Part shown: in pieces, positions 8,265-22,535 of the stretch
Layout of the letters: each line of letters begins with the position of its first letter
Numbering within the stretch: the first letter of the stretch is position 1
Assembly: GCF_022811705.1 (NCBI RefSeq)
Contig: NZ_CP094528.1
Span: 2,914,001 to 2,978,000 of the forward strand
DNA: 64,000 bases
Direction: 5' to 3'
Origin: Agromyces larvae
GTDB taxonomy: Bacteria > Actinomycetota > Actinomycetes > Actinomycetales > Microbacteriaceae
The notes under the pieces: model-generated
Told to the model about the DNA's origin: nothing
What the model saw: only the letters and a program-made list of their open reading frames with translations
Database searches by the model: none
Translations under genes and position numbers: made by a program

Positions 8265-8337
8265 CGGCGTCTCCAATCGATCGGATGTCTCGCAGCCAGC
8301 GTCACACCGCAGGGCCGCCGGCGGAACTACCGTCTCA

Positions 8338-8359
8338 CTCTGGTCGCCATACACCAGAG
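8338..8359. promoter_or_regulatory. LysR-type operator
   Basis: ctctggt (8338-8344) and accagag (8353-8359) form an exact 7-bp dyad with an 8-base centre containing the T-N11-A pattern. It is placed 34-55 bases before the lysR start and about 75-95 bases before hpaD. Confidence 0.65.
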
Positions 8360-8379
8360 CTATATCGGATGCCACGAAC

Positions 8380-8385
8380 TAGTCT
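8380..8385 (+). promoter_or_regulatory. -10 element of leaderless lysR transcript
   Basis: TAGTCT ends seven bases before the ATG at 8393; no ribosome binding site is visible. Confidence 0.5.
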
Positions 8386-8392
8386 GCTTCCT

Positions 8393-9331
8393 ATGGAACT
8401 GCGCGAGCTCCGCTACTTCGCCGCCGTGGTCGAGGCGGGCTCGCTCACCGCGGCCGCGGCTCGCCTGCACATGTCCCAGCCACCGCTCAGCGTGGCGATC
8501 GCGAAGCTCGAAACCGAACTCGGGGTGCGACTGCTCGTGCGTTCGTCGCGCGGCGTCGAGCCGACCAGCGCCGGGCGGTACCTGCTGGATGCCTCGACCC
8601 GCGTGCTGGGCGAGGTCGACGAGATCGTCGCGACCATCCGCCGCTCCGCTGGCGGGGCGAGCGGCACCCTCACCCTCGCCGCGGTGCCCGTGCTCATGTG
8701 GCACCGCATCCCGTCGCTCGTCCGCGCGCACGCGGCCGTCGCGCCCGACATCGAGATCCGGCTCGTCGACCCGCCGCCGTGGACCGCACTCGACCTGCTC
8801 GCCCAGCGCCGCGTCGACCTCGCCGCGATCATGGTCGCCGACCACGGCCGCTTCATCGCGCGGCACCGCGACGCGTACGACATCGTCGACTGGGGCGACG
8901 TGCCGCTCGTCGCGGCGCTGCCGCCGGGCTCCGAGGCATCCGACCGCGTCGCCCTGCGCGACTTCGACGACCAGATCGTGTTCCTGCCCCAGCGGACCGC
9001 CGCCGTGCCGAGCCTGCCTGAACTCGTCGACGCCGCGTTCCTCCGGCACGGCATCGTGCCGCGCGACGTGCGCACCGTCGGCACCATCCAGACGATCGTG
9101 CCGCTCATCGAAGCCGGCGTCGGCCGTGCCCTCCTGCCCGACCCCGATCGCGCCAGCCTCGGCAGATTCGACCTCACGGTGCGGCCGGTGCATCCCGATC
9201 CGGGCGCGCTGCGCGTGCTCGTGCTCACCGGGCGGGGCGGGTCATCCGACCCTGCCGTGCGCGGGCTGCTCGACCTGATCGGCGCACCCGGCGCACCGGC
9301 CGCGAGCGAGCCGGTCGCAGATCGTGTGTGA
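8393..9331 (+). CDS. LysR family transcriptional regulator
   Basis: 312 residues. The winged helix-turn-helix at residues 1-60 reads LRYFAAVVEAGSLTAAAARL then H-M-S-Q-P-P-L-S-V-A-I. The periplasmic-binding-like effector domain fills the rest. It is divergent from hpaD, with a dyad in between, so it is probably the activator of hpaD and represses itself, responding to an aromatic acid or cleavage product. A longer frame starts upstream inside the operator; the ATG at 8393 is preferred because the conserved M-E-L-R-E-L-R-Y-F start is there and a -10 precedes it. The last codons overlap the first operator of the neighbouring gntR gene. Confidence 0.9.
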   Translation: MELRELRYFAAVVEAGSLTAAAARLHMSQPPLSVAIAKLETELGVRLLVRSSRGVEPTSAGRYLLDASTRVLGEVDEIVATIRRSAGGASGTLTLAAVPVLMWHRIPSLVRAHAAVAPDIEIRLVDPPPWTALDLLAQRRVDLAAIMVADHGRFIARHRDAYDIVDWGDVPLVAALPPGSEASDRVALRDFDDQIVFLPQRTAAVPSLPELVDAAFLRHGIVPRDVRTVGTIQTIVPLIEAGVGRALLPDPDRASLGRFDLTVRPVHPDPGALRVLVLTGRGGSSDPAVRGLLDLIGAPGAPAASEPVADRV

Positions 9332-9344
9332 TTTCCCATACAAT
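9321..9344. promoter_or_regulatory. Operator A of the predicted GntR regulon
   Basis: Starts ATCGTGTGTGATT and ends CATACAAT, with imperfect dyad symmetry between the ends. The same 24-base pattern recurs at 16620-16643 and, inverted, at 20552-20575. It ends 25 bases before the gntR start codon and overlaps the lysR stop, so autoregulation is likely. Confidence 0.7.
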
Positions 9345-9369
9345 CGACGAACGCACGAGAGGACCGAGG

Positions 9370-10050
9370 ATGCCACCGAGCAAGGCCGAGCAGTCGTACG
9401 TCATTCTCAAGGCGCGCATCATGGACGGCACCTACGGCCCCGGCTACCGCCTCGTGATCGACCAGCTCGCCCGTGAACACGGCATCAGTTCGGTGCCCTG
9501 GCGCGAATCGCTGCGCCGGCTCGAGGCCGAGGGCTGGGTCGACATCATCCAGAACGTCGGCGCGGTCGTGCGCACCTTCGACGCGCACGCGTTCGAGCGC
9601 ACCATCCGACTGCTCTCCCGCCTCGAGGGCCTCGCCACCTCGCTGTCGGCACCGCACCTCACGGCCGACGACCTCGCCGCGGCGCGCTCGCTGAACGAGC
9701 AGATGGGCGAAGCGCTCGCGAACCTCGACACCAACCTCTTCGGCGTGCTCAACCGGCGTTTCCACCAGCTGCTGTGCTCGAAGTGCGACGACGACCGGCT
9801 CAACGACCTCGTCACGAACGAGTGGGCGCGGCTCGACTTCATCCGCCGGTCGGCGTACTGGTATGCACCCGGTCGCGCCCAGGCATCGGTCGTCGAGCAC
9901 GGCGAACTCCTCGACCTCATCGAGTCGGGCGCCGATGCCGACACCATCGAGACCGCCGCGCGCCAGCACGAGGTCAACACCCTCGCCGCCGTGACGACCT
10001 ACGATGCGGCCCTCGCGGGCCACGCCCCGAGCGAGTCCGAGCTCGCCTGA
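9370..10050 (+). CDS. GntR family regulator with FCD domain
   Basis: 226 residues. The winged helix-turn-helix at about residues 5-70 includes R-L-V-I-D-Q-L-A-R-E-H-G-I-S-S-V-P-W-R-E-S-L-R-R-L. The C-terminal all-helical FCD effector domain (about 80-215) keeps the H-x-x-x-H-type metal/ligand positions (N-R-R-F-H and the later V-V-E-H-G, A-R-Q-H-E). FCD regulators typically sense organic acids. The ATG at 9370 has GAGAGG at a proper distance; the longer frame starting at 9328 overlaps lysR. It is the best candidate to bind the three shared sites and control the neighbouring catabolic genes. Confidence 0.9.
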   Translation: MPPSKAEQSYVILKARIMDGTYGPGYRLVIDQLAREHGISSVPWRESLRRLEAEGWVDIIQNVGAVVRTFDAHAFERTIRLLSRLEGLATSLSAPHLTADDLAAARSLNEQMGEALANLDTNLFGVLNRRFHQLLCSKCDDDRLNDLVTNEWARLDFIRRSAYWYAPGRAQASVVEHGELLDLIESGADADTIETAARQHEVNTLAAVTTYDAALAGHAPSESELA

Positions 10051-10097
10051 GCGCCGCCTCCCGCCCCCGCCGCCCGCCCTCCGCCCTTCACCCCGAT

Positions 10098-10159
10098 CAA
10101 GGTCGATGCGTGCGTCCACGCCCGCCCCGGGGCATCCGTGGACGCCCATCGCGACCTTG
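10098..10159. repeat. Long hairpin, 23-base arms and 16-base loop (left flank)
   Basis: Arms 10098-10120 and 10137-10159 pair over 8 outer (CAAGGTCG) and 9 inner (GCGTCCACG) bases, with a 6-base internal mismatch. The loop contains gccccggggc. The geometry and outer sequence are the same as the hairpin at 11247-11308 on the other side of the AbiEi-like gene. Confidence 0.75.
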
Positions 10160-10279
10160 ACGACGGATGAGCCGCGGCCGCCGGCGAGCGCTCCTCCCCA
10201 CCTGCTGCGGGCGCATGGTTCTCCACGGAACGAATGAGCGCCCCATCGCCGGCGCTGCGCAGTGATGGAAGCTGCGGCG

Positions 10280-11242
10280 ATGGATCCCCGTCTCGTCCCC
10301 GGGCCGCACGGCCTCATCCTCACCAGAGACGCCCGAGACCTCGGCCTGGACGCCGCCCTTCGAGCGGCTCGCCGGGCCGGTGAGATCGAGCGCGTACGCC
10401 CGGGCGCCTACCGTGTCGTCTCCGATCGGCCCGCGCGCTTTCCGAGCCAGCGGCACGCACAACTGGTCCGAGCCGCCGCCGTGACCCTCGAGCGACCGAT
10501 CTTCACGTCGTACTCGGCCGCGGCGGTGCTCGGGCTGCCGATCATCGGGCGCTGGCCCGACGACGTGGTGCTGCTCGGCGCGACCCGCAACGGCCATCGA
10601 CGTCGTGGCGTCGTCGAAGTGTCACGCATCGGCGAACCCGCCATCGTGGAGGTGGGCGGCATCCTCATGACGAGCATCGAGTACACGCTGATCCAGCTGT
10701 GCCGTGCGGCTCCCGTCGCAGACGCACTCGCCGCCGTCGATGCGGCGCTTCGCGCCCCTCGCCACCCCAAGGACCGTCCGGCACTCACGACGATCGAGCG
10801 GCTCCGCGCAGAACACGAACGGATGCTTCCGTACCGCGGGAGCCGGCGCACCGAAGCCGTGCTCGAGCGTGCCACCGATCGCTGCGACAGCGTGCTCGAG
10901 ACGGCGAGCCGGCTGCTGTTCGAGCGCCACGGCTTCGCCGAGCCCGAACTGCAGCACTCGCTGTACCTCGACGAGCTCGGCATCACCGCCCAGGTGGACT
11001 TCTTCTGGCGCGACGTCGAGGCGGGCGCCGAAGCGGACGGACGCGGCAAGTACCGCCGAGCCGACATCGCGGAGTCGGCGGAGACGGTCATCGCCGAGAA
11101 GGATCGTGAGAACGCGCTTCGCCGGCGTCTGCGTGCCTTCGACCGATGGGACTGGCGCGATTGCCGCGCCGAGACGCCCGTCGTGCGCCGCCTCGACGCG
11201 ATGGGCGTCCCGCGCACCCGTCGACCCCGGTCGCTCGGGTGA
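10280..11242 (+). CDS. AbiEi-type antitoxin-domain protein with C-terminal nuclease-like domain
   Basis: 320 residues. The first 60 residues (L-I-L-T-R-D-A-R-D-L-G-L then R-V-R-P-G-A-Y) resemble the AbiEi antitoxin winged helix. The last 100 residues (A-Q-V-D-F-F-W-R-D, E-A-D-G-R-G-K-Y, A-E-K-D-R-E-N-A-L-R-R) look like the DUF559/Vsr-like restriction-endonuclease fold, with acidic and lysine residues in suitable order. Such proteins are frequent orphans in actinobacteria. No AbiEii nucleotidyltransferase toxin lies beside it. The ATG at 10280 has GGAAG at a good distance; an in-frame ATG at 10262 is an alternative. The gene is bracketed by two matching long hairpins. Confidence 0.7.
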   Translation: MDPRLVPGPHGLILTRDARDLGLDAALRAARRAGEIERVRPGAYRVVSDRPARFPSQRHAQLVRAAAVTLERPIFTSYSAAAVLGLPIIGRWPDDVVLLGATRNGHRRRGVVEVSRIGEPAIVEVGGILMTSIEYTLIQLCRAAPVADALAAVDAALRAPRHPKDRPALTTIERLRAEHERMLPYRGSRRTEAVLERATDRCDSVLETASRLLFERHGFAEPELQHSLYLDELGITAQVDFFWRDVEAGAEADGRGKYRRADIAESAETVIAEKDRENALRRRLRAFDRWDWRDCRAETPVVRRLDAMGVPRTRRPRSLG

Positions 11243-11246
11243 CCTC

Positions 11247-11308
11247 CAAGGTCGTTCTGTGCGTGCGAGTGCCCGAGCGGGCGACCTCGCATGCACAGAT
11301 CGACCTTG
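11247..11308. repeat. Long hairpin, 23-base arms and 16-base loop (right flank)
   Basis: Arms 11247-11269 and 11286-11308 match at 21 of 23 positions. The outer eight bases are again CAAGGTCG, and the loop contains gcccgagcgggc. It begins four bases after the AbiEi-like stop codon and precedes a G-rich tract (11314-11355). Confidence 0.8.
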
Positions 11309-11355
11309 CTGCGGGGGGGGCGGAGGCGGGGGGCGGGGCGGGGGGCGGGGGCGGG

Positions 11356-12693
11356 TTAGGCGCGGGCGCGGGCGCGCCATTGCGCCAGGTAGGCGCGGGC
11401 GTAGTCGTTGCCGTTGGGCAGGCGGAGGGTCGTGTGCACGTGGAAGCGCGCGGGCAGGCGGTTGCTGAGCCAGACGCCGGCGTGGTTGTCGAGCTCGGCG
11501 AGGATCACGGGGCTCTGCACACGGAAGTACACCGGCTGCGTGCCGTCGGTCGCGCCGTACCACGAGAACCACGTCTCATCGAGGTACGCGTCGTACCGTT
11601 CGAGCGCACGCCGCCTCGACGGCTCGCGCAGCAGCAGCAGGAAGTCCTCGACGATCCGGCGCAGCAGGGCGCGCTGGCGCTCGTCGAGCCGCGACACCGG
11701 GATGCCCTCGTACGGCACCACCCGGTTGTCCTGGAACGCCCCGGCGACATGGCGCTCGTCGGCCGGGTGCAGCCTGCCCTCGGGCATGGCGGGGTCGAGC
11801 ACCGAGGCGTAGACGACGGCCTCGGCGCGCTGGGCGGGCGTGAGCGAGGCGGCGAGCTCGAGGGCGAGCCGCTCGCGCTCGTCGAACAAGGGCGGCCGCG
11901 CGCCATCGGAGAGCGCCGGCTCGGCACCGATGAAGACCGGCGCGATGACGTCGACCCCGGCCACGGTCGCGAAGTTGACCGCTACGTGGTGGCCGAACAG
12001 CTGCCAGCCCCACGGGGCATCCGTCGACGGGTCGCCGAACAGGCTGAACCAGTAGCTGCGCTCGTTCATGATCGTCGGCAGCTCGGTGAGTTCGCCGAGG
12101 AACCCGTTCAGCGCCATCGCCTCGCGCACGCGCGTGTATCCCTCAGGGCTGAGCGAGGCCTCGACGACCGCGAGGATCGCCTCGACCTGCGGCTCGGCGA
12201 GGTCTTCGAGGCGGAGCCCGTTGCGGTGGAAGACGAACTCGGGGTTGCTCCAGCCGCGCCAGTCGGGCGCGTCCATCGGGTAGCGCAGGCGGTCGAGCTG
12301 GTCGGGCGCGAGCGTCGCGAGCAGGTGCCGAGCGGATGCCACGAGCGAACCGTCGCCCGCGGCGCCGGCGTCGGCATCCGCGTCGGCGCCCGCGTCGCCG
12401 CCCGCATCGGGGAGCGGCCAGACCTCGTCGCGCACCACCCCGTCGGCGGTGACGCCGCGGAACGGCTCGGCGTAGCGCGCATCCCAGTCGGCGAGCAGCT
12501 CGCGCAGGAACTCGTTGCCCTGCCGGGCCGCGGTGAACTCCTCGTACGACATGCCGCGCCAGGGCGCGAGCTCGTCGTCGTCGAGCGCGTAGAGGTACTG
12601 CCGGTAGCTCGCGGCGTCGAGGGTGACCGCCTCGTCGCGACCGCTCACCCGTGCGGTCGAGAAGAACCCGTCGATGTCGCGGTCGTCAGTCAT
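11356..12693 (-). CDS. DUF3500 domain protein
   Basis: 445 residues matching the DUF3500 family. Segments such as F-S-W-Y-G-A-T-D, P-V-Y-F-R-V-Q-S-P-V-I-L-A-E-L-D and H-V-H-T-T-L-R-L-P-N-G-N-D-Y are typical, as is the late conserved His pair. No reaction is established for the family. The ATG at 12693 overlaps the end of the ABC ATPase gene by eight bases and has GAGG upstream, so it is the last gene of the transporter operon. That suggests a role in handling the imported compound. Residues about 105-130 are a D/A-rich low-complexity insert made of GAT-GCC codon pairs. Confidence 0.8.
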   Translation of the reverse strand: MTDDRDIDGFFSTARVSGRDEAVTLDAASYRQYLYALDDDELAPWRGMSYEEFTAARQGNEFLRELLADWDARYAEPFRGVTADGVVRDEVWPLPDAGGDAGADADADAGAAGDGSLVASARHLLATLAPDQLDRLRYPMDAPDWRGWSNPEFVFHRNGLRLEDLAEPQVEAILAVVEASLSPEGYTRVREAMALNGFLGELTELPTIMNERSYWFSLFGDPSTDAPWGWQLFGHHVAVNFATVAGVDVIAPVFIGAEPALSDGARPPLFDERERLALELAASLTPAQRAEAVVYASVLDPAMPEGRLHPADERHVAGAFQDNRVVPYEGIPVSRLDERQRALLRRIVEDFLLLLREPSRRRALERYDAYLDETWFSWYGATDGTQPVYFRVQSPVILAELDNHAGVWLSNRLPARFHVHTTLRLPNGNDYARAYLAQWRARARA

Positions 12694-14353
12694 GCGGAGC
12701 ATCCTCGTGCGATCCGGCCGACGGCTCCGACAGCGGGGCGCGCTGGCGGAGCTTCGCCCGCGACCCGTCGGCGTAGATGGCGCCGACGATGTCGTCGGGG
12801 CTCATGGGGGCGGTGAGCTCCTGCCGCACCGCGCCGTCGGCGAACACGAGCACCCGGTCGCAGACGAGCGAGAGCTCGTTCTCGTCGGAGCCGGCGACGA
12901 GCACGAACGTGCCGTCGGCGGCGGCCCGCCGGATGGCGTCCGCGATGACGTGCCTGGCGCCGATGTCGACCGCCTGGGTCGGTTCGTGCAGCAGCAGGAG
13001 GTCGGGGTCCGTCGCGAGCCACTTGGCGACGAAGACCTTCTGCTGGTTGCCGCCGCTCAGCGTCGCGACGGGCACGTCGGGGCGCGGCGGTCGCACGTCG
13101 AGCCGTTCGATCCACCGCTCCGCGAGGGCTCGCTCGCCGCGGATCGAGAACGGCATCAGCTGGCGGCGCGCGCGCGACGTCTGCGGGAACGCGACGTTCT
13201 CGGCGACCGAGAGCGTGCCGGCGATGCCGGCGTGTTCGCGCCCTTCGGGGATGAGCGAGATACCGGCGGCGATCGCGTCGCTCGGGGACAGGCCGGGCAG
13301 CCGGATGTCACGAGCGGATGCCTGGGCGCCGGTCGACTCCGCGGCGGGAATCGTGACCGACCCCGCCGATGCGGGGGACACGCCGGCGAGCAGGTACGGC
13401 ACGTCGTCGTACCCCGAGCCCGCCAGGCCGGTCAGGCCGAGCACCTCGCCGGGGCGGATCTCGAAGCCGATGTCGTGCACGCCGAGCCCGGTGACGCCCT
13501 CGACCCGCACCGGTGCGCCGTTGCCGGCGGCGGGCCGGTCGTGCTCGCCGAGCTCGATGAGGTCGCGACCGAGGATGAGGGTGGTGAGCGTCGCCTCGGT
13601 CATGCCGGCGACCTCGCGGCCGGACTCGACGACGGCGCCGTCGCGCAGGATCGTCACCCGATCGGCCGCGTCGACGACCTCCTCGAGGCGGTGCGTGATG
13701 AGCAGCACGGCGGTGCCGGTGGCGACGATCTCGTCGAGCAGGGTGAAGAAGCTCTCGAGTGCTCGCCGGCCGAGCGCGCGGGTCGACTCGTCGAAGATGA
13801 TGAGACCGTTGCCCGGCGTGGCATCCTGCAGGGCGCGCGCGATCGCGACGACCGCGCGTTCCTCCTCGTTCAGCGATCCGACGCGCGCGTCGAGCGGGAC
13901 GTCGCGGTGGATGCGGTCGAAGACCGCCTTCGCGGCGGCGCGTTCGCGCTTCCAGTCGACCCGGCGGAACGGGCCGGTCGCTTCGAGCCGGCCGACCCGC
14001 AGGTTGTCGAGCACCGTGAACTCGTCGACGAGTCCGAGGCTCTGGTGCACGATCGCCATGCCGCGAGTGCGGGCGTCGAGCGGGGTCACGGGCAGGTCGA
14101 AGGGGCGCCCGTCGAACGAGACCACCCCGCCCGGGTCGGGAGTGTAGAGCCCCGAGAGGATCTTCGCCACCGTCGATTTGCCCGAGCCGTTCTGGCCGAC
14201 GAGGGCGTGCACCTCGCCGGCGCGGACGTCGAACGAGATGTCCTTCAGCACTCGGCTGCGGCCGAACGTCTTCGACAGCGAGTCGACCGCGAGCCGGGTG
14301 CCCCGGGGTGCGGGCGTCTCCGCCCGCACCCCGTCGATGGTGCCGAGGGTCAC
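12686..14353 (-). CDS. Sugar-type ABC transporter ATP-binding protein (two ATPase domains)
   Basis: 555 residues, two fused ABC domains as in RbsA/MglA. Domain 1 has Walker A G-Q-N-G-S-G-K-S-T and Walker B L-I-I-F-D-E-S-T, with a degenerate signature L-N-E-E-E-R. Domain 2 has an altered Walker A (G-L-A-G-S-G-Y-D-D), an intact signature L-S-G-G-N-Q-Q-K and Walker B L-L-L-L-H-E-P-T where Asp is replaced by His. Such asymmetry is usual for the CUT2 family. The GTG at 14353 overlaps the binding-protein stop (GTGA). It energises uptake together with the adjoining permease. Confidence 0.9.
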   Translation of the reverse strand: MTLGTIDGVRAETPAPRGTRLAVDSLSKTFGRSRVLKDISFDVRAGEVHALVGQNGSGKSTVAKILSGLYTPDPGGVVSFDGRPFDLPVTPLDARTRGMAIVHQSLGLVDEFTVLDNLRVGRLEATGPFRRVDWKRERAAAKAVFDRIHRDVPLDARVGSLNEEERAVVAIARALQDATPGNGLIIFDESTRALGRRALESFFTLLDEIVATGTAVLLITHRLEEVVDAADRVTILRDGAVVESGREVAGMTEATLTTLILGRDLIELGEHDRPAAGNGAPVRVEGVTGLGVHDIGFEIRPGEVLGLTGLAGSGYDDVPYLLAGVSPASAGSVTIPAAESTGAQASARDIRLPGLSPSDAIAAGISLIPEGREHAGIAGTLSVAENVAFPQTSRARRQLMPFSIRGERALAERWIERLDVRPPRPDVPVATLSGGNQQKVFVAKWLATDPDLLLLHEPTQAVDIGARHVIADAIRRAAADGTFVLVAGSDENELSLVCDRVLVFADGAVRQELTAPMSPDDIVGAIYADGSRAKLRQRAPLSEPSAGSHEDAPHD

Positions 14354-15519
14354 GCAACACCCCACAGCGCGAGGAAGTCGTCGCGGAAGGTGGTCGGACC
14401 GAACCACTCGCCCGACGCCTCGGCCTCCTCGGTCAGCTCGATCGAGTCGATGTTGTCGCGGGTGAAGAGGCGCACGGGGATGGTGTACTCGGGTGCCGGC
14501 GTCCCGGTGATGAGGCGCAGCGCCAGGTCGGCTTCGACCCAGCCCTGGTAGGCGTTCGCCTGACCGGTGGCGGCGTAGAGGTAGGTGCCCGAGGCGAGGG
14601 CCTGCAGGCCGCCGACGCCGACGGAGCCGGTGACGCCCTTGACCGAGTCGATCATGCCGGCCGCCTGCACGCCGCCCTGGGTGGGCTGGAGGAACTGCGC
14701 GAAGTCGTTCACGACGTAGCCGATGGTCGGGTCGTTCAGCAGGGCGGCGCTCACCGACGGCGTCACCTGCGGGAAGTTCGACGACGAGACGTCGTTGATC
14801 GTGACCGTGCAGTCGGGGCAGATCTGCTCGAGCTCGTCGAGGCCGGCCTGCACGTAGGCCTTCTGCGAGGGGCCGTCGGCGGTGCGGTTCATGAGGATGT
14901 TGGCCGTGCCGTCCGAGTCCTTGGTGATCCACTGCGCGATCGCGACCTCCTGGTCGGAGCCGCCCGCGGGCACGAAGCCGAGGGTCTCGGAGGTGGGGTG
15001 GTTCTCGTCGGCGATCTGGTTGGCGATGATCACCGGGATCCCGGCGGCCTGCGCCGCGTCGAGCGCGTTCGCGGCGAGCCCGTACGGCACCGCGTCGGTG
15101 ACGATGGCGGCGGCGCCGGCCTGGGTGCCCTGGCCGATGCAGGAGCCGATGTCGCTCGGGTTGCCCTTGCCGTCGCAGACCTGCACGTCGATGCCGACGT
15201 TGCCGAGGGCCTCGGTGAGCTGGGCGCTCACGATCGAGAACTGCGGCGACTGGAGGGTGATCGGCACGTAGTAGACGGTCTGGCCGGCGAGGTCGGCGAC
15301 GCCGTCGATCGGCTCGGAGGGGATGGGGTACGCGTCGAGCGGCGACGAGACGGCCTCGAGGGCCGCGTCGAGCGACGAGTCGACGTTGCTCTCGCTGCCG
15401 GTGGTGGCCGCGGGCGGCTCGGCGCCGGCCTCGCTGCACCCGACGAGGGCTGCGGCGGTCACGGCGATGGCACCGGCGGCGAGGATGCCCCGGGCGCGAC
15501 GTGCGGTGATGGTGTTCAT
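14350..15519 (-). CDS. Sugar-type ABC transporter substrate-binding lipoprotein
   Basis: 389 residues. The signal peptide ends at lipobox L-V-G-C28, so the protein is tethered outside the membrane. The mature part is a periplasmic-binding-protein type 1 fold (V-Y-Y-V-P-I-T-L-Q-S-P-Q-F near the start, G-I-P-V-I-I-A-N-Q in the middle). Homologues bind sugars, but also autoinducers, nucleosides or aromatic glycosides. Its neighbours are aromatic-catabolism genes, so the ligand need not be a sugar. It is the second gene of the transporter operon. Confidence 0.9.
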   Translation of the reverse strand: MNTITARRARGILAAGAIAVTAAALVGCSEAGAEPPAATTGSESNVDSSLDAALEAVSSPLDAYPIPSEPIDGVADLAGQTVYYVPITLQSPQFSIVSAQLTEALGNVGIDVQVCDGKGNPSDIGSCIGQGTQAGAAAIVTDAVPYGLAANALDAAQAAGIPVIIANQIADENHPTSETLGFVPAGGSDQEVAIAQWITKDSDGTANILMNRTADGPSQKAYVQAGLDELEQICPDCTVTINDVSSSNFPQVTPSVSAALLNDPTIGYVVNDFAQFLQPTQGGVQAAGMIDSVKGVTGSVGVGGLQALASGTYLYAATGQANAYQGWVEADLALRLITGTPAPEYTIPVRLFTRDNIDSIELTEEAEASGEWFGPTTFRDDFLALWGVA

Positions 15520-15584
15520 GCTGTGGGTTCCTTACTCGGCATCGTTGACAGTTCGGATTGCGGTGGTGCGCCTGCGCCCCCGGG

Positions 15585-16598
15585 CTACCTCGCCCGGCGG
15601 TGGAGGATCGTGGAGATCGTGACGGCGATGACGAGCACACCGCCGTAGAAGATGTTCGAGATGGCGGGGCTCGCGCCGAGGAACTTCAGGCCGAGCACGC
15701 CGGTCGCGAGGAAGTAGACCGCGACGAGGGTGCCGAGCGGGTTGAAGCGCCCGGGCTGGAAGATCGCGGTGCCGAGGAACGTCGCCGCGAACATGGGCAG
15801 CAGGTAGGTCTGCGAGGTCATGGCCTCGGCGCCGCCGAAGTAGGCGGCCGAGAGCACGCCGCCGATGCCGGCGATGAGTCCGGCGAAGGTGAAGGCGCCG
15901 ACGCGGATGCGGTTCACCCGGACGCCCGCGAGCCGGCTGACCTCGCGGTTCTCGCCGACGAACCGCATGTTGCGCCCGAGCGGGGTGAACTGCAGCAGGT
16001 AGGCGAAGACGAGCATGAGCGCGACCGCGAGGTAGAACGTGATCGGCAGCCCGCCGATGCGGGTGGTCGCGACGCTGGAGAACTCGGGGGGCAGGCCGCT
16101 CACCGGCTGCAGGTTGCTCACCCAGCTGGCGATGCCGAGCAGCACGGTGCCCATGCCCAGGGTGACCACGATGGTGTTCACGCCGACTCGGACGACGAGC
16201 AGACCGTTGATGATGCCGGCGAGCGTCGACACGGCGATCGCCACGAGTGCGGCGATCCAGACGTTCCATCCGTGCGTGACGTTCAGCACGACCACGAGGA
16301 TGGCTGCGAGCCCGAAGTTCGAGGCGACGGACATGTCGACGAACTCGCCGACGATGATCGTGCAGAGCAGCGCGGCCGAGAGGAAGACCAGGTCGGATTG
16401 GCCGCCGAAGATGGAGCCCCAGGTGCCGGGGTGGAACATGTTCTGCGGGCGCAGCACCATGAACAGCCCGATGAGGAGGATCCACACGGCGATCACGGCG
16501 AAGCGTGAGGATGCCCAGCCGAACCACGAGTGGGGTTCGGCCTCCCGTGCCGCGGCGACCGCCACGGTCTCGTTGGGAATCGTCTTGGTGTCGGTCAT
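15585..16598 (-). CDS. Sugar-type ABC transporter permease (RbsC-like)
   Basis: 337 residues with about eight to ten hydrophobic helices and the family loop L-G-R-N-M-R-F-V-G-E-N-R-E-V-S-R-L-A-G-V-R-V (about residues 215-240), the site that contacts the ATPase. It is the first gene of the importer operon (permease, binding protein, ATPase, DUF3500). The ATG at 16598 has GGAGG about eleven bases upstream; an in-frame ATG at 16613 is possible. A 24-bp operator lies only 22 bases before the start. Confidence 0.9.
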   Translation of the reverse strand: MTDTKTIPNETVAVAAAREAEPHSWFGWASSRFAVIAVWILLIGLFMVLRPQNMFHPGTWGSIFGGQSDLVFLSAALLCTIIVGEFVDMSVASNFGLAAILVVVLNVTHGWNVWIAALVAIAVSTLAGIINGLLVVRVGVNTIVVTLGMGTVLLGIASWVSNLQPVSGLPPEFSSVATTRIGGLPITFYLAVALMLVFAYLLQFTPLGRNMRFVGENREVSRLAGVRVNRIRVGAFTFAGLIAGIGGVLSAAYFGGAEAMTSQTYLLPMFAATFLGTAIFQPGRFNPLGTLVAVYFLATGVLGLKFLGASPAISNIFYGGVLVIAVTISTILHRRAR

Positions 16599-16619
16599 CG
16601 CGGGTCCATCCTCCATTGG

Positions 16620-16643
16620 ATCGTGTGCGACATCATATGCGAT
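16620..16643. promoter_or_regulatory. Operator B of the predicted GntR regulon
   Basis: Begins ATCGTGTGCGAC and ends TATGCGAT, with outer ATCG/CGAT symmetry. It shares ten of the first eleven bases with sites A and C. It sits in the 64-base gap between the Rid gene and the permease start, so the importer operon can be controlled separately from the enzymes upstream. Confidence 0.7.
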
Positions 16644-16662
16644 ATCTCGCTGGATTGTTCGG

Positions 16663-17067
16663 TCATCGCCGATGCTCTCGCGCATCCGCCGCGAGCACGG
16701 CCACGACGTCGCACTGCACGAGTGCCCCGCGGTCGAGTCGGGCGGCCATCACCTGGCGTGCGGGCCGGTCGGCCGGGTCGGGGAACATGGCGACCCACTC
16801 GCGGTTGATCGCGGTGCGGTCGCGGAGCTCGGACACCCAGAAGGTCAGCTTCACGATGTCGCCGGTGCCGCCGCCGGCGGCGGCCATCAGCTCCCTGATG
16901 CGCTCGAACACGACGGCGACCTGCTCGTCGAGCCCCTCCGGGATCTCCTTCGTGCGCGGGTCGCGCGCGGTGAGCACGCCCGAGTACAGGTACGGCCCGA
17001 TCCGGGATGCCACGGGCACCGGGTTCTCGTGCGCGAACGACTCGAGGTGGATGCTGGTGCGGGTCAT
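16663..17067 (-). CDS. Rid family (YjgF/YER057c) protein, enamine/imine deaminase-like
   Basis: 134 residues. Rid proteins hydrolyse reactive enamines and imines; one branch is 2-aminomuconate deaminase. The typical G-P-Y-L-Y-S-G-V start and the later D-I-V-K-L-T-F-W-V-S-E-L-R are present. The usual catalytic Arg region reads R-P-A-R-Q-V-M-A-A-R. The start overlaps the FAH gene stop by ATGA. Its place between a ring-catabolic hydrolase and an importer suggests a nitrogen-containing intermediate. Confidence 0.85.
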   Translation of the reverse strand: MTRTSIHLESFAHENPVPVASRIGPYLYSGVLTARDPRTKEIPEGLDEQVAVVFERIRELMAAAGGGTGDIVKLTFWVSELRDRTAINREWVAMFPDPADRPARQVMAARLDRGALVQCDVVAVLAADAREHRR

Positions 17068-17924
17068 GGCAGCACCTCGTCGACGACGCGGTTCTCGATC
17101 GCGCCGAGCCCTTCGATCTCGGCGCGCACGACGTCGCCGGCCTTCAGGAACCGGCCGGTCGGCGCGCCGATGCCGGCGGGTGTACCGGTGGCGAGGAGGT
17201 CGCCCGGCATGAGCGTCATGACCGTCGACAGATACTCGATCTGCTCGTAGACGTCGTAGATCATGTCGTTCGTGCGGAAGTCCTGCCGCACCTCGCCGTT
17301 CACGGTCAGCCGCATGGCGAGATCGAGCGGGTCGTCGATCTCGTCGTCGGTCGTGAGCCACGGGCCGATGGGGCCGTGCGTGTCGAACGACTTGCCCAGC
17401 GTGAACGTGGGCGAGCGCTTCTGCAGCCAGTCGCGCACCGAGACGTCGTTCGCGACGAGGTAGCCGGCGATGAACGAGCGCGCATCGGCGGCGCGCACGT
17501 GCCGGGCGGGCCGGCCGATGACCACGCCGAGCTCGATCTCGTAGTCGAGCTGGTCGCTCACCGCGGGCTTCACGATGTCGGCGTGCGGGCCCACGATGCA
17601 GGAGACCTGCTTGTTGAACCACAGCTGGCTCGTGGGCGTCGGGATGCCGGCCTGGCGCGCCTCTTCGGCGTGCTCCTTGTAGTTCATGCCGATGCCGAGG
17701 TATTTCTGCGGCGCGTCGATCGGCGCCTCCAGCACGACCTCGGCGAGCGCGTGGCGCGGGCCGTCGGCGGCTCGGATCGCGGGCGCGAGTTCGGCCAGGT
17801 CGGGCAGGATGCTCCGCAGCGACGTGCCGACGCCCGGCACCGCCGACACGTCGACGAGGGTGTCGCCGTCGACGCGGCCGATGCGGGCGGATCCGTCGCC
17901 GACGCGGAATCGGGCGAGCCTCAT
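17064..17924 (-). CDS. Fumarylacetoacetate hydrolase family protein
   Basis: 286 residues. Family members hydrolyse, decarboxylate or hydrate 2-oxo acids formed after ring cleavage. The metal site is seen as Y-K-E-H-A-E-E (about 80), D-Y-E-I-E-L-G-V-V-I-G (E and D ligands, about 130) and later S-F-D-T-H-G-P-I-G-P-W. G-D-L-L-A-T-G-T-P-A-G-I-G is the family signature near the end. Start and stop both overlap neighbours by ATGA, so four genes (monooxygenase, NTF2-like, FAH, Rid) are tightly coupled. It could be a COHED decarboxylase or oxalocrotonate-type enzyme. Confidence 0.9.
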   Translation of the reverse strand: MRLARFRVGDGSARIGRVDGDTLVDVSAVPGVGTSLRSILPDLAELAPAIRAADGPRHALAEVVLEAPIDAPQKYLGIGMNYKEHAEEARQAGIPTPTSQLWFNKQVSCIVGPHADIVKPAVSDQLDYEIELGVVIGRPARHVRAADARSFIAGYLVANDVSVRDWLQKRSPTFTLGKSFDTHGPIGPWLTTDDEIDDPLDLAMRLTVNGEVRQDFRTNDMIYDVYEQIEYLSTVMTLMPGDLLATGTPAGIGAPTGRFLKAGDVVRAEIEGLGAIENRVVDEVLP

Positions 17925-18391
17925 CGCGCCGCCTCCTCGGTGTTCGCGCTCTGCGCGGCCGACGCGGCCTGCTCGGACGGGAGCTTGCCCCAGACCTCCT
18001 CGCCGAGCGGCGTGAGCTGGAAGTTCAGGAACCGCCAGTCGTCGCCGTCGCGGACGAGCACCTGCGTGACGACGCCGCGCTGGGTGCGGGCGGAGCCGTC
18101 GGGGTTGCGCAGTTCGTTCACGATGGGGCCGGTCGCGATGGCGAGGTCGCCGACGACCCGGATCGCGAGCTCGCCGCGCTCGATCGACAGGTACGCGCGG
18201 CGGGTGCCGACGTGTTCGAGCAGCATCCGCTTGTCGTGCACGACGCCGGGCGCGTGGATGTGCACGAGCCGGTCGTCGAAGATGCGGGCGAGGGTGTCGA
18301 GGTCGCCGTCGATGAGGGCCGCCTGTCGGGCGGCCTCGACGGCCAGGATCGCGGTGCGCTCGTCGGGGGTGGCGTCGCGGATGTCACTCAT
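17921..18391 (-). CDS. NTF2-like/SnoaL-fold protein (DUF4440-like)
   Basis: 156 residues with an NTF2-like cone fold pattern: an N-terminal helix with A-R-Q-A-A-L-I-D-G-D-L-D-T-L, then F-D-D-R-L-V-H-I-H-A-P-G-V, and a last strand V-L-V-R-D-G-D-D-W-R-F-L-N-F-Q. Such proteins act as small isomerases, cyclases or hydrolases, or as subunits. The ATG at 18391 overlaps the monooxygenase end by eight bases (ATGAGTGA). The tail after residue 130 is Ala/Ser-rich and probably disordered. The exact role is unknown. Confidence 0.75.
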   Translation of the reverse strand: MSDIRDATPDERTAILAVEAARQAALIDGDLDTLARIFDDRLVHIHAPGVVHDKRMLLEHVGTRRAYLSIERGELAIRVVGDLAIATGPIVNELRNPDGSARTQRGVVTQVLVRDGDDWRFLNFQLTPLGEEVWGKLPSEQAASAAQSANTEEAAR

Positions 18392-19691
18392 GGACGCCCC
18401 CGGCCTCGCTGCCGCCGACCCGCACCCCGTCGACCTGCCAGGTGCGGAAGCCCGTCGCCTCGCCGGCCTCGTGGCCGGGGCGCGGGGCGCCGACGAGCGC
18501 GTGGTACTTCGAGAAGATGGCGTCGGCCTCGGCCAGCGGCAGCACGGCTTCGATGTCATCGAACGGCTTGCCGTCGGTGCGCTCGGCGACGATCCGCCTG
18601 ATGACCTCGTACCCCTCGCCGCGCATGTTGTCGGCGATGCGGTTCACGATCTCGCGCCGGTCGGCGTCGTAGGCGGCGAACGCGTCGCGCGGGTCGCCGT
18701 GCTGCGTGAGGTGCTCGGCGAGGACGCGGGCGTCGAGCATCGCCTGCGTGATGCCGTTGCCGCCGCGGGGGTACATGGCGTGCGCGGCGTCGCCGAGCAG
18801 CACGACGCGGCCGTCGACCCAGCTATCGAGCGGGAAGTGGCGGATGAGCGGGAAGAGGTAGACCTCGCGCGCGTCGCGGATCAGCTGCTGCACGTCGAGG
18901 AAGGGCAGTTCGAGGGTGTCGAACGCGGGGATGATCTGTTCGGGGTCGGCGACCTGGTTCCAGTCCTCGACGGTCTCTTCGCCGTTCGTCTCGACCACCC
19001 AGTTGATGAGGTCGAGACCGGTTCCCTCGAAGTTCTCGGCGATCGGGTACACGATCATCGTCGACACCCGCGGGTCGCCGAGGTGCAGGATGGTGTGCCC
19101 GCCGCGGATGGGCTCGCGCAGCGTCGTGCCGCGCCACATCGTGATGCCCGAGAACTCGGGCTCGGCCTGCTGGGGGTGCATCTGGCGGCGGACGGCCGAC
19201 TTGATCCCGTCTGCGGCGATGACGGCGTCGTGGCGCACCTGTTCGGTGCGGCCGTCCCGGTGCTCGAGGTCGAGCGTCACGCCGTCGGCGTCCTGCGCGT
19301 AGGCGGCGACGCGCGCGCCGAGGACGACCGATTCGGCGCCGAGGCGCTCGAGCACCGTGCGGAACAGCAGCATCTGGAGGATGCCCCGGTGCACGAAGCG
19401 CTGCTCGTGCAGGTAGCCCATGTGCACGCCGCACTTCTCGGCGTAGATCTCCTGGCCGTAGTGGTTGAAGAAGATCGAGTCCTCGGCGTCGACCGAGATC
19501 GCGCGGAACTCGTCGAGCAGGCCGAGGTCGTCGAGTTCGCGGGTGCCGACCGTCTTGATGTCGACGCCGACGCCGAGCGGCTTCAGCTCGGGCACGGTCT
19601 CGTAGATCGTGGGCCGGAACCCGGCCTGGTGCAGACGCAGTGCGGTGACGAGCCCGCCGGGCCCGGCGCCGATGATGGCGATATCGGTCAT
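18384..19691 (-). CDS. FAD-dependent aromatic-ring monooxygenase (PHBH-like)
   Basis: 435 residues of the group A flavoprotein hydroxylases. The nucleotide-binding G8-A-G-P-G-G13 follows the first strand. The D-G motif (V-I-A-A-D-G-I-K-S-A-V-R) lies in the middle, and G-D-A-A-H-A-M-Y-P-R-G-G-N-G (about 300) binds the FAD ribityl chain. The last motif resembles PhzS-type enzymes that hydroxylate N-heterocycles or carboxylated rings. It would introduce a hydroxyl before ring opening. The ATG at 19691 has AGGGA upstream. It follows dienelactone hydrolase by 17 bases. Confidence 0.88.
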   Translation of the reverse strand: MTDIAIIGAGPGGLVTALRLHQAGFRPTIYETVPELKPLGVGVDIKTVGTRELDDLGLLDEFRAISVDAEDSIFFNHYGQEIYAEKCGVHMGYLHEQRFVHRGILQMLLFRTVLERLGAESVVLGARVAAYAQDADGVTLDLEHRDGRTEQVRHDAVIAADGIKSAVRRQMHPQQAEPEFSGITMWRGTTLREPIRGGHTILHLGDPRVSTMIVYPIAENFEGTGLDLINWVVETNGEETVEDWNQVADPEQIIPAFDTLELPFLDVQQLIRDAREVYLFPLIRHFPLDSWVDGRVVLLGDAAHAMYPRGGNGITQAMLDARVLAEHLTQHGDPRDAFAAYDADRREIVNRIADNMRGEGYEVIRRIVAERTDGKPFDDIEAVLPLAEADAIFSKYHALVGAPRPGHEAGEATGFRTWQVDGVRVGGSEAGGVHE

Positions 19692-19708
19692 GGATGTCCC
19701 TGCTTCTC

Positions 19709-20476
19709 TTACGCGCCGGTGGACGACGACTTCGGGGCCTCGGCGAACAGCTCGCCGAGGAAGCTGACGGTGCGGGCCCATGCTCGGGCGGCGCTGCGGG
19801 CGTCGTAGGCCGCACCCGGCATGCCGAGGGCATCGGCCTTCGGGTTGGTGAAGGCGTGCTGCGCACCGCTGTAGAGGTCGAACTCCCAGTCGATGCCCGC
19901 GTCGGTGAGCCCCGCCTTGATCGGCTGCCAGTGCCGGGGTGCGGCCATCGGGTCGGCGGCGCCGGTGCAGAGCAGCACGCTCGCCGTGCTCGTCGCGGCC
20001 GACCAGTCGCCGGCGACGAGGTCGAGGCCGCCGTGGATGCTGACGGCTCCGGCGACGTCGCCACCGGTGCGCACGTACTCGAGGGCGGATGACCCGCCGA
20101 CGCAGTATCCGACGACGGCGATGCGCGCGGCGTCGACTTCGGGCTGAGCGGCGGCGGCCAGGTGGGCGGCGCGGATGCGCGACATCCATTCGTCCCGGTC
20201 GCCGGCCATCGACCCGATCAGCCGGCCGATCTGCTCGCCCGTGGTCGGCTGGAACCGCTCGCCCCACACGTCGGCGGCGAACACCGTGTAGCCGAGGGCG
20301 GCGTAGCGCTCGGCGAGCGCGACGAGGTCGGCGGTGAGCCCGAAGGCGTCGTGGACGAGCAGGATGCCAGGGCGCGCGCCGACGGCATCCCCGGCGCGGG
20401 CACCGGCCAGGAGGCATCCGAGCATGCGGGTGTCCGCGTGCCGGTACGCGATGTCGCGGGTGATCGTGTGGGCCAT
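19709..20476 (-). CDS. Dienelactone hydrolase family protein
   Basis: 255 residues, alpha/beta hydrolase fold with a cysteine nucleophile. G-Y-C125-V-G-G is the elbow, D175 (in T-G-A-A-D-P) and H207 (in G-A-Q-H-A-F) complete the triad, and E-type loop residues are near 45. Dienelactone hydrolases open lactones formed in catechol degradation, though many family members act on other esters. It is the first gene of the minus-strand catabolic unit; the start at 20476 lacks a clear ribosome binding site. Operator C lies about 75 bases upstream. Confidence 0.85.
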   Translation of the reverse strand: MAHTITRDIAYRHADTRMLGCLLAGARAGDAVGARPGILLVHDAFGLTADLVALAERYAALGYTVFAADVWGERFQPTTGEQIGRLIGSMAGDRDEWMSRIRAAHLAAAAQPEVDAARIAVVGYCVGGSSALEYVRTGGDVAGAVSIHGGLDLVAGDWSAATSTASVLLCTGAADPMAAPRHWQPIKAGLTDAGIDWEFDLYSGAQHAFTNPKADALGMPGAAYDARSAARAWARTVSFLGELFAEAPKSSSTGA

Positions 20477-20551
20477 GCGCCGTCGTTTCTGCTGAGGTGG
20501 ATCGGGACTCCTCGAGTCGACGACGTGCGCTCGACCCTGAGGCGTGACATG

Positions 20552-20575
20552 ATCCTACATGGAATCACACACGAT
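20552..20575. promoter_or_regulatory. Operator C of the predicted GntR regulon
   Basis: On the minus strand it reads ATCGTGTGTGATT then CCATGTAGGAT. The first 13 bases are identical to operator A. It lies between the divergent dienelactone hydrolase and amidohydrolase genes and could control both. Confidence 0.7.
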
Positions 20576-20627
20576 TTAGAACGCGATTCGATTTCCCCGC
20601 GATGACGCGAGACAGGAGCACCAGACC

Positions 20628-21683
20628 ATGACGGTCGTCGACATCAACATCCACCACCTGCCCGAGGACCTCTTCAGCAACGAGGCCATCCTGCGCGGCT
20701 TCCTCGACAGCGCGCCGCGCGGCTTCGGCGAGATCGCCCGCGTCATCGAGATGGAGAGCGGCAAGCAGCAGCTCGTGCTCGAGAAGCCGAAGGGCTACCA
20801 GAACCTCAACTACGTCGACGGCGACTACTCCGCCGAGGCGAAGCTCGCCGCGATGGACGAAGCCGGCGTCGACTACGGCATCATGCGCGTGCCGGTGTGG
20901 CAGGAGTGGCTGCCGCTCGAGACCTGCAAGGCGGTCAACGACAACGCCGCCGACATCGTCGCGCGGTCGGGCGGCCGCCTGTTCTCGACCGCCTGCGTGC
21001 CGCCGTGGGGTGACAAGCAGAGCATCTACGAACTCGAGCGCTGCGTGAAGGAGCTCGGCGTCGTCGGCGTGCAGCTCGCCTGCCACTACGGGCAGCTCTA
21101 CCTCGACGACGAGGCGTTCGACCCGTACCTCAAGGTGCTGAACGACCTCGAGATCCCGGTGATCGTGCACCACACGCCGCTGCCCGTCGAGTGGAAGTCG
21201 GTCATCGACTACACGAACCTCCGCCGCGAGTACGGCCGGATCATCGACCAGGGCATCGCCGTCGGCCGCGAGCTGTTCAGCGGCATGTTCGACAAGTACC
21301 CCAACCTGCGGTTCATCCACACCATGCTCGGCGGCAACTGGTTCGCCAACACCGCGCTGCTCACCCCACACGCCTCCCCCAAGAAGGAGGCGATGCAGCG
21401 GCTCGAGTCGACCGGCGGCGAGAAGATCCAGCAGTACCTGCGCGAGAACATCTTCTTCGACCTCACCCACCCGCACTCCTGGGGCAAGACGCAGGTCGAG
21501 GCGGCGCTCGAGATCAACGGCGCCGACCACTACCTGTTCGGCTCGTCGTTCCCCGTGTTCTACAGCTGGATGGGCCAGGGCGTCGAGTTCGTGCAGAACG
21601 AGCTCGAGATCAGCGACGCCGACCGCGAACTCGTGCTCGCCGGCAACGCCAAGCGGCTGTTCGACCTGCCGATCGAGCTCTGA
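20628..21683 (+). CDS. Amidohydrolase_2 (ACMSD-like) family protein with altered metal site
   Basis: 351 residues of the TIM-barrel family that includes 2-amino-3-carboxymuconate semialdehyde decarboxylase. The strand-1 motif H-x-H is replaced by N7-I-H9. H182 (V-I-V-H-H-T-P) and H231 (F-I-H-T-M-L-G-G-N) are kept. The strand-8 Asp of G-S-D-Y-P is Ser307 (F-G-S-S-F-P). Metal binding or the reaction must therefore differ from the norm. The ATG at 20628 has AGGAG upstream. It is divergent from dienelactone hydrolase, with an operator shared with the importer operon. It may be a decarboxylase or hydrolase of the pathway, or a non-catalytic relative. Confidence 0.8.
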   Translation: MTVVDINIHHLPEDLFSNEAILRGFLDSAPRGFGEIARVIEMESGKQQLVLEKPKGYQNLNYVDGDYSAEAKLAAMDEAGVDYGIMRVPVWQEWLPLETCKAVNDNAADIVARSGGRLFSTACVPPWGDKQSIYELERCVKELGVVGVQLACHYGQLYLDDEAFDPYLKVLNDLEIPVIVHHTPLPVEWKSVIDYTNLRREYGRIIDQGIAVGRELFSGMFDKYPNLRFIHTMLGGNWFANTALLTPHASPKKEAMQRLESTGGEKIQQYLRENIFFDLTHPHSWGKTQVEAALEINGADHYLFGSSFPVFYSWMGQGVEFVQNELEISDADRELVLAGNAKRLFDLPIEL

Positions 21684-22151: not shown

Positions 22152-22535
22152 ATGACCCGCTCGCACATCATCGCGGTGGATGCTCCAGCCGCCGTCGGCC
22201 CGTACTCGCACGCGATGACCGCCGGAGAGGTCGTGTTCCTGTCGGGGCAGACGCCGATCGTTCCGGCGACCGGCGCCCTCGTCGAGGGCGACGTCACGGC
22301 GCAGGCTCGTCAGGTGTTCGCGAACCTCGGGGCGGTGCTCGCCGCTGCCGGTCTCGGCTTCGCCGACGCGGTGAAGGTGAACGTGTTCCTCACCGACATG
22401 GACGACTTCGCGGCGATGAACGCGGTCTACGAGACCGTCTTCCCCCAGCCGTTCCCGGCCCGCACGACGGTGGCCGTCGCGGGCCTGCCGCTCGGAGCGC
22501 GGATCGAGATCGAGCTCACCGCGCTGCGCCGCTGA
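22152..22535 (+). CDS. RidA family enamine/imine deaminase
   Basis: 127 residues, a canonical RidA. G-P-Y-S-H-A-M, F-L-S-G-Q-T-P-I and the C-terminal F-P-A-R-T-T-V-A-V-A-G-L-P-L-G-A-R-I-E-I-E include the catalytic Arg and Glu. It detoxifies 2-aminoacrylate-like intermediates from PLP enzymes. Its own -10 element immediately before the ATG implies a leaderless mRNA separate from the DUF2200 gene. It is closer to standard RidA than the Rid protein at 16663-17067. Confidence 0.92.
   Translation: MTRSHIIAVDAPAAVGPYSHAMTAGEVVFLSGQTPIVPATGALVEGDVTAQARQVFANLGAVLAAAGLGFADAVKVNVFLTDMDDFAAMNAVYETVFPQPFPARTTVAVAGLPLGARIEIELTALRR

Follow-up and report, generated by a model that had tools for sequence, protein, structure and literature searches.

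The FadR subfamily of GntR-type regulators is described as recognizing operators with the consensus GT-N2/3-AC (Suvorova 2015, PMC4494728, in its passages on this subfamily). According to the same passages, its autoregulated catabolic repressors combine a GntR with an FCD domain, are encoded by genes adjoining their targets and bind short GT-centred dyads in divergent regions, with weaker extra boxes near the sites. NanR, another repressor of the GntR/FCD type, has the operator (GGTATA)3, in which short units are repeated over promoters (sections of PMC8012715).

The locus considered here, from an Agromyces soil bacterium, spans 8.3-21.7 kb of the window, by which we mean the whole analyzed stretch of 64,000 nucleotides. 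It shares with the FadR-subfamily systems the domain make-up, the position of the regulator gene beside its presumed targets, a site in a divergent region and a short GT-centred dyad, and its own gene as well as neighbouring target operons carry sites. The window boxes differ from the published consensus of the subfamily in having GT without a matching AC: the right half of the 12-bp box ATCGTGTGYGAW reads GYGA and lacks the second conserved AC. The protein has PWRE in place of the PVRE of aligned paralogs, and promoter hexamers flank the box at fixed distances, either on one side or on both. The GT-N2-AC form does occur in ATCGTGTACGAT, the sequence of one box at each of four loci, two from Streptomyces, one from Nocardioides and one from Cellulomonas. 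Compared with NanR, as presented in those sections of PMC8012715, the period here is 12 bp, -10/-35 hexamers account for many of the extra units, and the protein lacks a long N-terminal extension: its Pfam GntR domain begins about 7 residues in. Literature searches did not find GntR together with dienelactone hydrolase and FCD domain, or Agromyces together with GntR and operator; those for GntR/FCD with tandem repeat and for tetrahydroxybenzene with dienelactone returned nothing, and five forms of the box sequence led to no title concerning a GntR regulon.

The gene cluster and its three sites

The cluster opens on the plus strand with a LysR-type regulator gene (8285-9331), a frequent neighbour, and the gntR gene (9370-10050). 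Both Pfam domains of the GntR protein score above their cut-offs (PF00392, 46.7 bits, cut-off 27; PF07729, 72.6 bits, cut-off 24.3), which is the GntR plus FCD make-up of the FadR subfamily. An ORF of 326 aa (10262-11242) lies between gntR and the DUF3500 gene. On the minus strand follow the DUF3500 protein (11356-12702; PF12006, E 8e-96), a sugar-type ABC ATPase with an uncertain start codon (12686-14356), a substrate-binding protein (14350-15519; PF13407) and a permease (15585-16598; PF02653). The same strand then carries a RidA-like protein (16663-17067; PF01042), an FAA hydrolase nearest to HpaG/HpcE-type enzymes (17064-17924), a SnoaL/DUF4440 protein (17921-18391), an FAD monooxygenase (FMO; 18384-19691) and a dienelactone hydrolase family protein (dlh, 19709-20476; PF01738). 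The nearest solved chains of the monooxygenase are 2rgj and 3c96, a flavin-containing monooxygenase which we take to be PhzS. An amidohydrolase-2 gene (20628-21683, plus strand), whose closest relatives of solved structure are gamma-resorcylate and 5-carboxyvanillate decarboxylases, diverges from dlh. A second RidA-family gene (22152-22535) is found downstream of the amidohydrolase gene and a DUF2200 gene.

The preliminary description had placed three copies of one element at 9321-9344 (site A, plus strand, before gntR), at 16620-16643 (site B, plus strand, before the ABC permease) and, inverted, at 20552-20575 (site C, minus strand, in the dlh/amidohydrolase divergence). Pattern matching returned the same coordinates, the same start ATCGTGTG[T/C]GA[T/C] and final AT, and the same identity of sites A and C across 13 bases, and the distances to mapped starts agree with its assignment of each site to a promoter. 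Box A, a 12-bp putative operator (ATCGTGTGTGAT, 9321-9332, plus strand), stops 37 bp short of the gntR start codon (ATG, 9370). The lysR stop codon TGA (9329-9331) falls inside it, and thus box A also encodes the last LysR residues. Box B (ATCGTGTGCGAC, 16620-16631, plus strand) starts 21 bp upstream of the permease start, and box C (ATCGTGTGTGAT, 20564-20575, minus strand) lies within the 151-bp interval between dlh and the amidohydrolase gene. All are exact matches, and each putative operator is conserved at ortholog loci.

The complete genome (4,005,264 bases, one contig) was scanned with the reversed pattern as a control. With zero mismatches ATCGTGTGYGAY matches three times in the window and three times in the genome, each match being one of A, B and C, and its reversed control has no match in the complete genome. 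The 24-base ATCGTRTGYGATNTCNNATRCGAT with up to three mismatches again finds only A, B and C, the second of them on both strands. Patterns joining the box to a -10 hexamer, one for each strand of the hexamer, with one mismatch allowed, match only A and C, and only B and A, respectively. These scans gave no equally good match outside the cluster, whereas many such matches inside unrelated genes would have counted against the preliminary description. Since the exact, 24-base and both box-plus-hexamer scans are confined to the cluster, there is no sign of full-strength distant targets; weaker ones may exist elsewhere in the genome.

Conservation of the box in related genomes

Among 60 Agromyces genomes, the window's own included, four have a GntR match of at least 68% identity; the others, among the matches listed, reach at most 49%. 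The other three loci have the gene set in common with changed order and orientation, one of them (G005) without this importer, and their sites stand before gntR and before dlh, amidohydrolase or permease. The strict pattern ATCNTGTGYGAWN6TANNAT occurs in exactly the four ortholog-bearing genomes of the 60, with 7/7 matches in the cluster. In 398 genomes of the family it was found in ten, nine of them ortholog-bearing, with 17 of the 18 matches in the cluster and none for the control. The single box-plus-hexamer match outside known clusters (G420:C66:798-821) belongs to a genome with no GntR match at E 1e-60. Such matches are present in 15/398 family genomes, with up to seven candidates scored per genome, and the one in G141 is paralog-like, with PVRE and no cluster. 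Five ortholog-bearing family genomes lack the strict pattern (G147, G112, G310, G404 and G428), G147 having variant boxes. A matrix built from 12 sites of four genomes regained strong sites in eight further genomes; G310, G428, G404 and G112 have weak sites at the expected places, at scores also reached by background matches.

Further loci, among the best 80 of 92, come from Demequina, Leucobacter, Microbacterium, Streptomyces, Kitasatospora, Promicromonospora, Cellulomonas, Nocardioides, Actinoplanes and others. After removal of ten duplicates, 87 loci were examined, 51 with an ortholog (GntR identity of at least 55%) and 36 of the paralog type. The presence of GntR in this set proves nothing, as the ortholog served as the search bait, a bias that does not affect the pattern scans of the genus and the family. 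Ortholog loci contain DUF3500 in 46/51, the amidohydrolase in 42/51, the monooxygenase in 39/51 and the dienelactone hydrolase in 31/51 cases, many loci ending about 10 kb from gntR, whereas DUF3500, amidohydrolase and monooxygenase are each found in 0/36 paralog-type loci.

The 12-mer matrix was run on the 43 of 51 ortholog loci with at least two core genes, leaving out the other eight. At a score of at least 13.5 it gave 153 boxes, 146 outside mapped genes and seven inside; 126 lie no more than 400 bases from a mapped start and 27 are not near one. At a score of at least 18 there were 97 promoter boxes (95 distinct) in 38 of the 43 scanned loci. Boxes were found in 27/32 loci outside the matrix training, one of which (G326) is nearly identical to the training locus G286, and none reached the threshold in five of the 43 (G112, G310, G404, G428 and L110). 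The box thus recurs before gntR, permease and dlh/amidohydrolase genes in many actinobacterial genera and follows its promoters through rearrangement. This bears out what the preliminary description expected of orthologous loci, and its union of transporter, enzymes and regulator in one regulon is supported by cluster-confined sites, their conservation at the same promoters and ortholog co-occurrence. In the G147, G286 and G326 loci (L076-L081) the importer ATPase and permease are just 41-47% like those of the window, and the boxes stand before the ABC cassette, an importer swap that fits a pathway regulon with an exchangeable transporter.

Alignment of the regulator showed PWRE (W44) in 15/15 orthologs and PVRE in 5/5 relatives of 45-51% identity; judging from known structures, we take the PWRES segment of the window's protein to be the DNA-recognition helix. 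N128, H132, H177 and H200 are invariant in the same 15 orthologs and are candidate metal ligands. Near the gntR genes of distant relatives (35-46%) there are dyad-like sites at L136 9979 (GTCGTATATGATTTCATGTATGAA), L145 2537 and L164 9929, which hint at a wider operator family.

Register of promoter hexamers and alternative readings

For the register count, the 95 distinct boxes were picked by the 12-mer alone; the register had been spotted before counting, and related loci are non-independent. TANNNT stands at +19 in 43/95 boxes, and every other forward register outside the box has at most two. On the opposite strand it occupies positions 13-18 in 21/95, with at most five in other registers outside the box; registers overlapping the box reach 14. 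TTGAAA occurs solely at -4, at 15 boxes; a 17-base spacer, in which the box lies, separates it each time from a TANNNT (TACGAT in 11/15). A mapped gene lies in the promoter direction in 42/43 forward and 20/21 reverse cases; 32/95 boxes have neither -10 register. Held-out loci alone gave 23/59 boxes for the +19 register and 10/59 for the opposite strand. In the window, the putative -10 hexamers are TACAAT of the gntR promoter (9339-9344, plus strand, register +19 of box A), TATGAT of the permease promoter (16632-16637, minus strand), which abuts box B, and TAGGAT of the dlh promoter (20552-20557, minus strand). The last is preceded at 17-bp spacing by a weak -35-like TCTAAA (20575-20580, minus strand), and box C fills most of the spacer; many relatives have TTGAAA at the place of TCTAAA. 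The fixed -10/-35 register thus puts the box inside or against the core promoter, and the simplest reading would be that a short operator, bound by a dimer, is interwoven with the promoter, hence repression by occlusion.

These counts alter the picture of a 24-bp operator given in the preliminary description. We at first accepted that length as the functional unit and then rejected it: the conserved unit is the 12-bp ATCGTGTGYGAW, the other half is mostly promoter, and the symmetry and 12-bp periodicity are largely those of the -10/-35 hexamers. A true array of 12-bp units, 24 or 36 bp long and holding two or three adjacent GntR dimers in the manner of NanR, could explain why 33 distinct sites score 0.54 as a 24-bp dyad and 0.57 as a 12-bp direct repeat, values that column permutations reach in 1 and 0 of 2000, respectively. 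It would also accommodate the further 12-bp unit seen at some sites and the near-perfect 24-bp dyad of L120, whose right half is not -10-like, and it has a precedent in the three NanR repeats bound by three dimers (reported in part of PMC8012715). However, much of what stands out in the right half is TANNNT in fixed register, on whichever strand the promoter runs, and at 15 boxes a TTGAAA spaced 17 bp from the -10 hexamer makes up the third unit; we consider such an array rather unlikely. The argument that the three-site match is hardly due to chance holds for the exact form, which is unique to the three promoters, and not for forms with up to two mismatches, as common in the window (30 matches) as in shuffles (27 +/- 5.6). 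Near-matches are not rare genome-wide either, 102 being found with up to one mismatch against 17 for the reversed pattern. Such numbers would suit a coincidence or a functionless repeated element, but the exact uniqueness, the conservation at the same promoters across genera and the phylogenetic profile refute this reading, to which we give practically no credence.

Binding of the boxes by the neighbouring LysR regulator deserves more weight, as lysR directly precedes gntR, 36/51 ortholog loci and 0/36 paralog-type loci contain a LysR match of at least 40%, and ATC...GAT dyads are known for LysR proteins. Yet a close LysR homolog is missing in 7/7 tested genomes of other families that keep GntR and boxes, the best E values being 7e-18 to 1e-23 compared with 1e-222 for the window itself; these genomes (two Streptomyces, Kitasatospora, Nocardioides, two Actinoplanes and Mangrovihabitans) were picked for having no LysR mapped at the locus. 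In G147, a 65% LysR is encoded about 73 kb from gntR. The persistence of boxes without a close homolog makes LysR the less likely binder, and we rejected it as the main one, a quite improbable role for a regulator that is not present wherever the box is. A GntR paralog of about 45% identity, present in 53/60 Agromyces genomes (best or second match, E <1e-45), was also considered and judged unlikely to exert the control: at 17 loci inspected by eye, the roughly 150 bases before its gene are coding-like and hold no box. Against this rejection, a one-mismatch ATCGTGGGC occurs further upstream in 12/17 of these loci, and in the window's genome ATCGTGGGCGAC, 336 bases upstream of the paralog, was taken for coding sequence. 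The box-plus-hexamer pattern is missing from the 56/60 Agromyces genomes without the ortholog. The 46% paralog at G000:C1:183674-184315 is apparently within an operon.

Proposed regulation and a possible DUF3500 pathway

The uniqueness and conservation of the sites, their -10/-35-like register and their co-occurrence with the ortholog are observed; the binding protein, the operon structure, repression, the effector and the substrate are inferred. With considerable confidence, the three sites are operators at which the local GntR/FCD protein represses the regulator, importer and breakdown genes. If gene order reflects operons with the boxed genes, as it suggests, the regulon would also include DUF3500, RidA, the FAA hydrolase, the SnoaL-like protein and the FAD monooxygenase. 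A GntR/FCD dimer would occupy the 12-bp ATCGTGTGYGAW either within the spacer, immediately before the -10 hexamer (gntR and dlh), or immediately after that hexamer (permease), and since the box lies within the promoter itself, RNA polymerase would be blocked on binding. Without substrate, the protein would repress gntR itself, the operon of importer and DUF3500 genes, the dlh-FMO-SnoaL-FAA-RidA operon and, probably, the amidohydrolase gene that diverges from it; release would come from an intermediate of the pathway, probably a carboxylate bound at the metal site of the FCD domain. The GntR protein may instead activate these genes rather than repress them. Either way, the sequence evidence indicates that it very probably switches a single, poorly understood local pathway on and off.

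The gene content of the regulon suggests polyhydroxybenzene breakdown. DUF3500, hydroxylase and dienelactone hydrolase occur together in the window cluster. An Aspergillus nidulans DUF3500 protein is proposed, in part of a review, to convert 1,2,3,5-tetrahydroxybenzene to 5-hydroxydienelactone (PMC12388069), so the company of DUF3500, dienelactone hydrolase and hydroxylase genes suggests a related route. The fungal pathway, likened here by description in that part of the review, has both DUF3500 and a hydroxylase, and its proposed dienelactone product matches the dienelactone hydrolase of the cluster; unlike it, the present system is bacterial and clustered, with an importer, a decarboxylase-like amidohydrolase and an FAA hydrolase. 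In a table of a Rhodococcus study, consecutive locus tags belong to a DUF3500 gene and a gene with an FCD domain (PMC8416521). DUF3500 is rarely named in the literature searched, where the fungal function is the only one proposed, and among 1486 matches of 8000 scored candidates, the 120 homologs listed give no function by name or alignment. Tentatively, the regulon could be a bacterial counterpart of the fungal pathway, in which the monooxygenase and the amidohydrolase would make a polyhydroxybenzene, DUF3500 would open the ring to a hydroxydienelactone, the dienelactone and FAA hydrolases would finish the breakdown, and GntR would sense an intermediate via an operator in the -35/-10 spacer.

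The regulon is of an ordinary kind and its substance is well supported; what makes it useful is that it connects DUF3500, an enzyme family about which little is known, with a testable regulator. It provides such a regulator, an operator and a gene set for a catabolic pathway kept across many actinobacterial genera, including Agromyces, Leifsonia, Leucobacter, Microbacterium, Streptomyces and Actinoplanes. The promoter architecture is a ready reporter for substrate identification, and searches with the conserved box can locate this pathway, transporters included, in other genomes.
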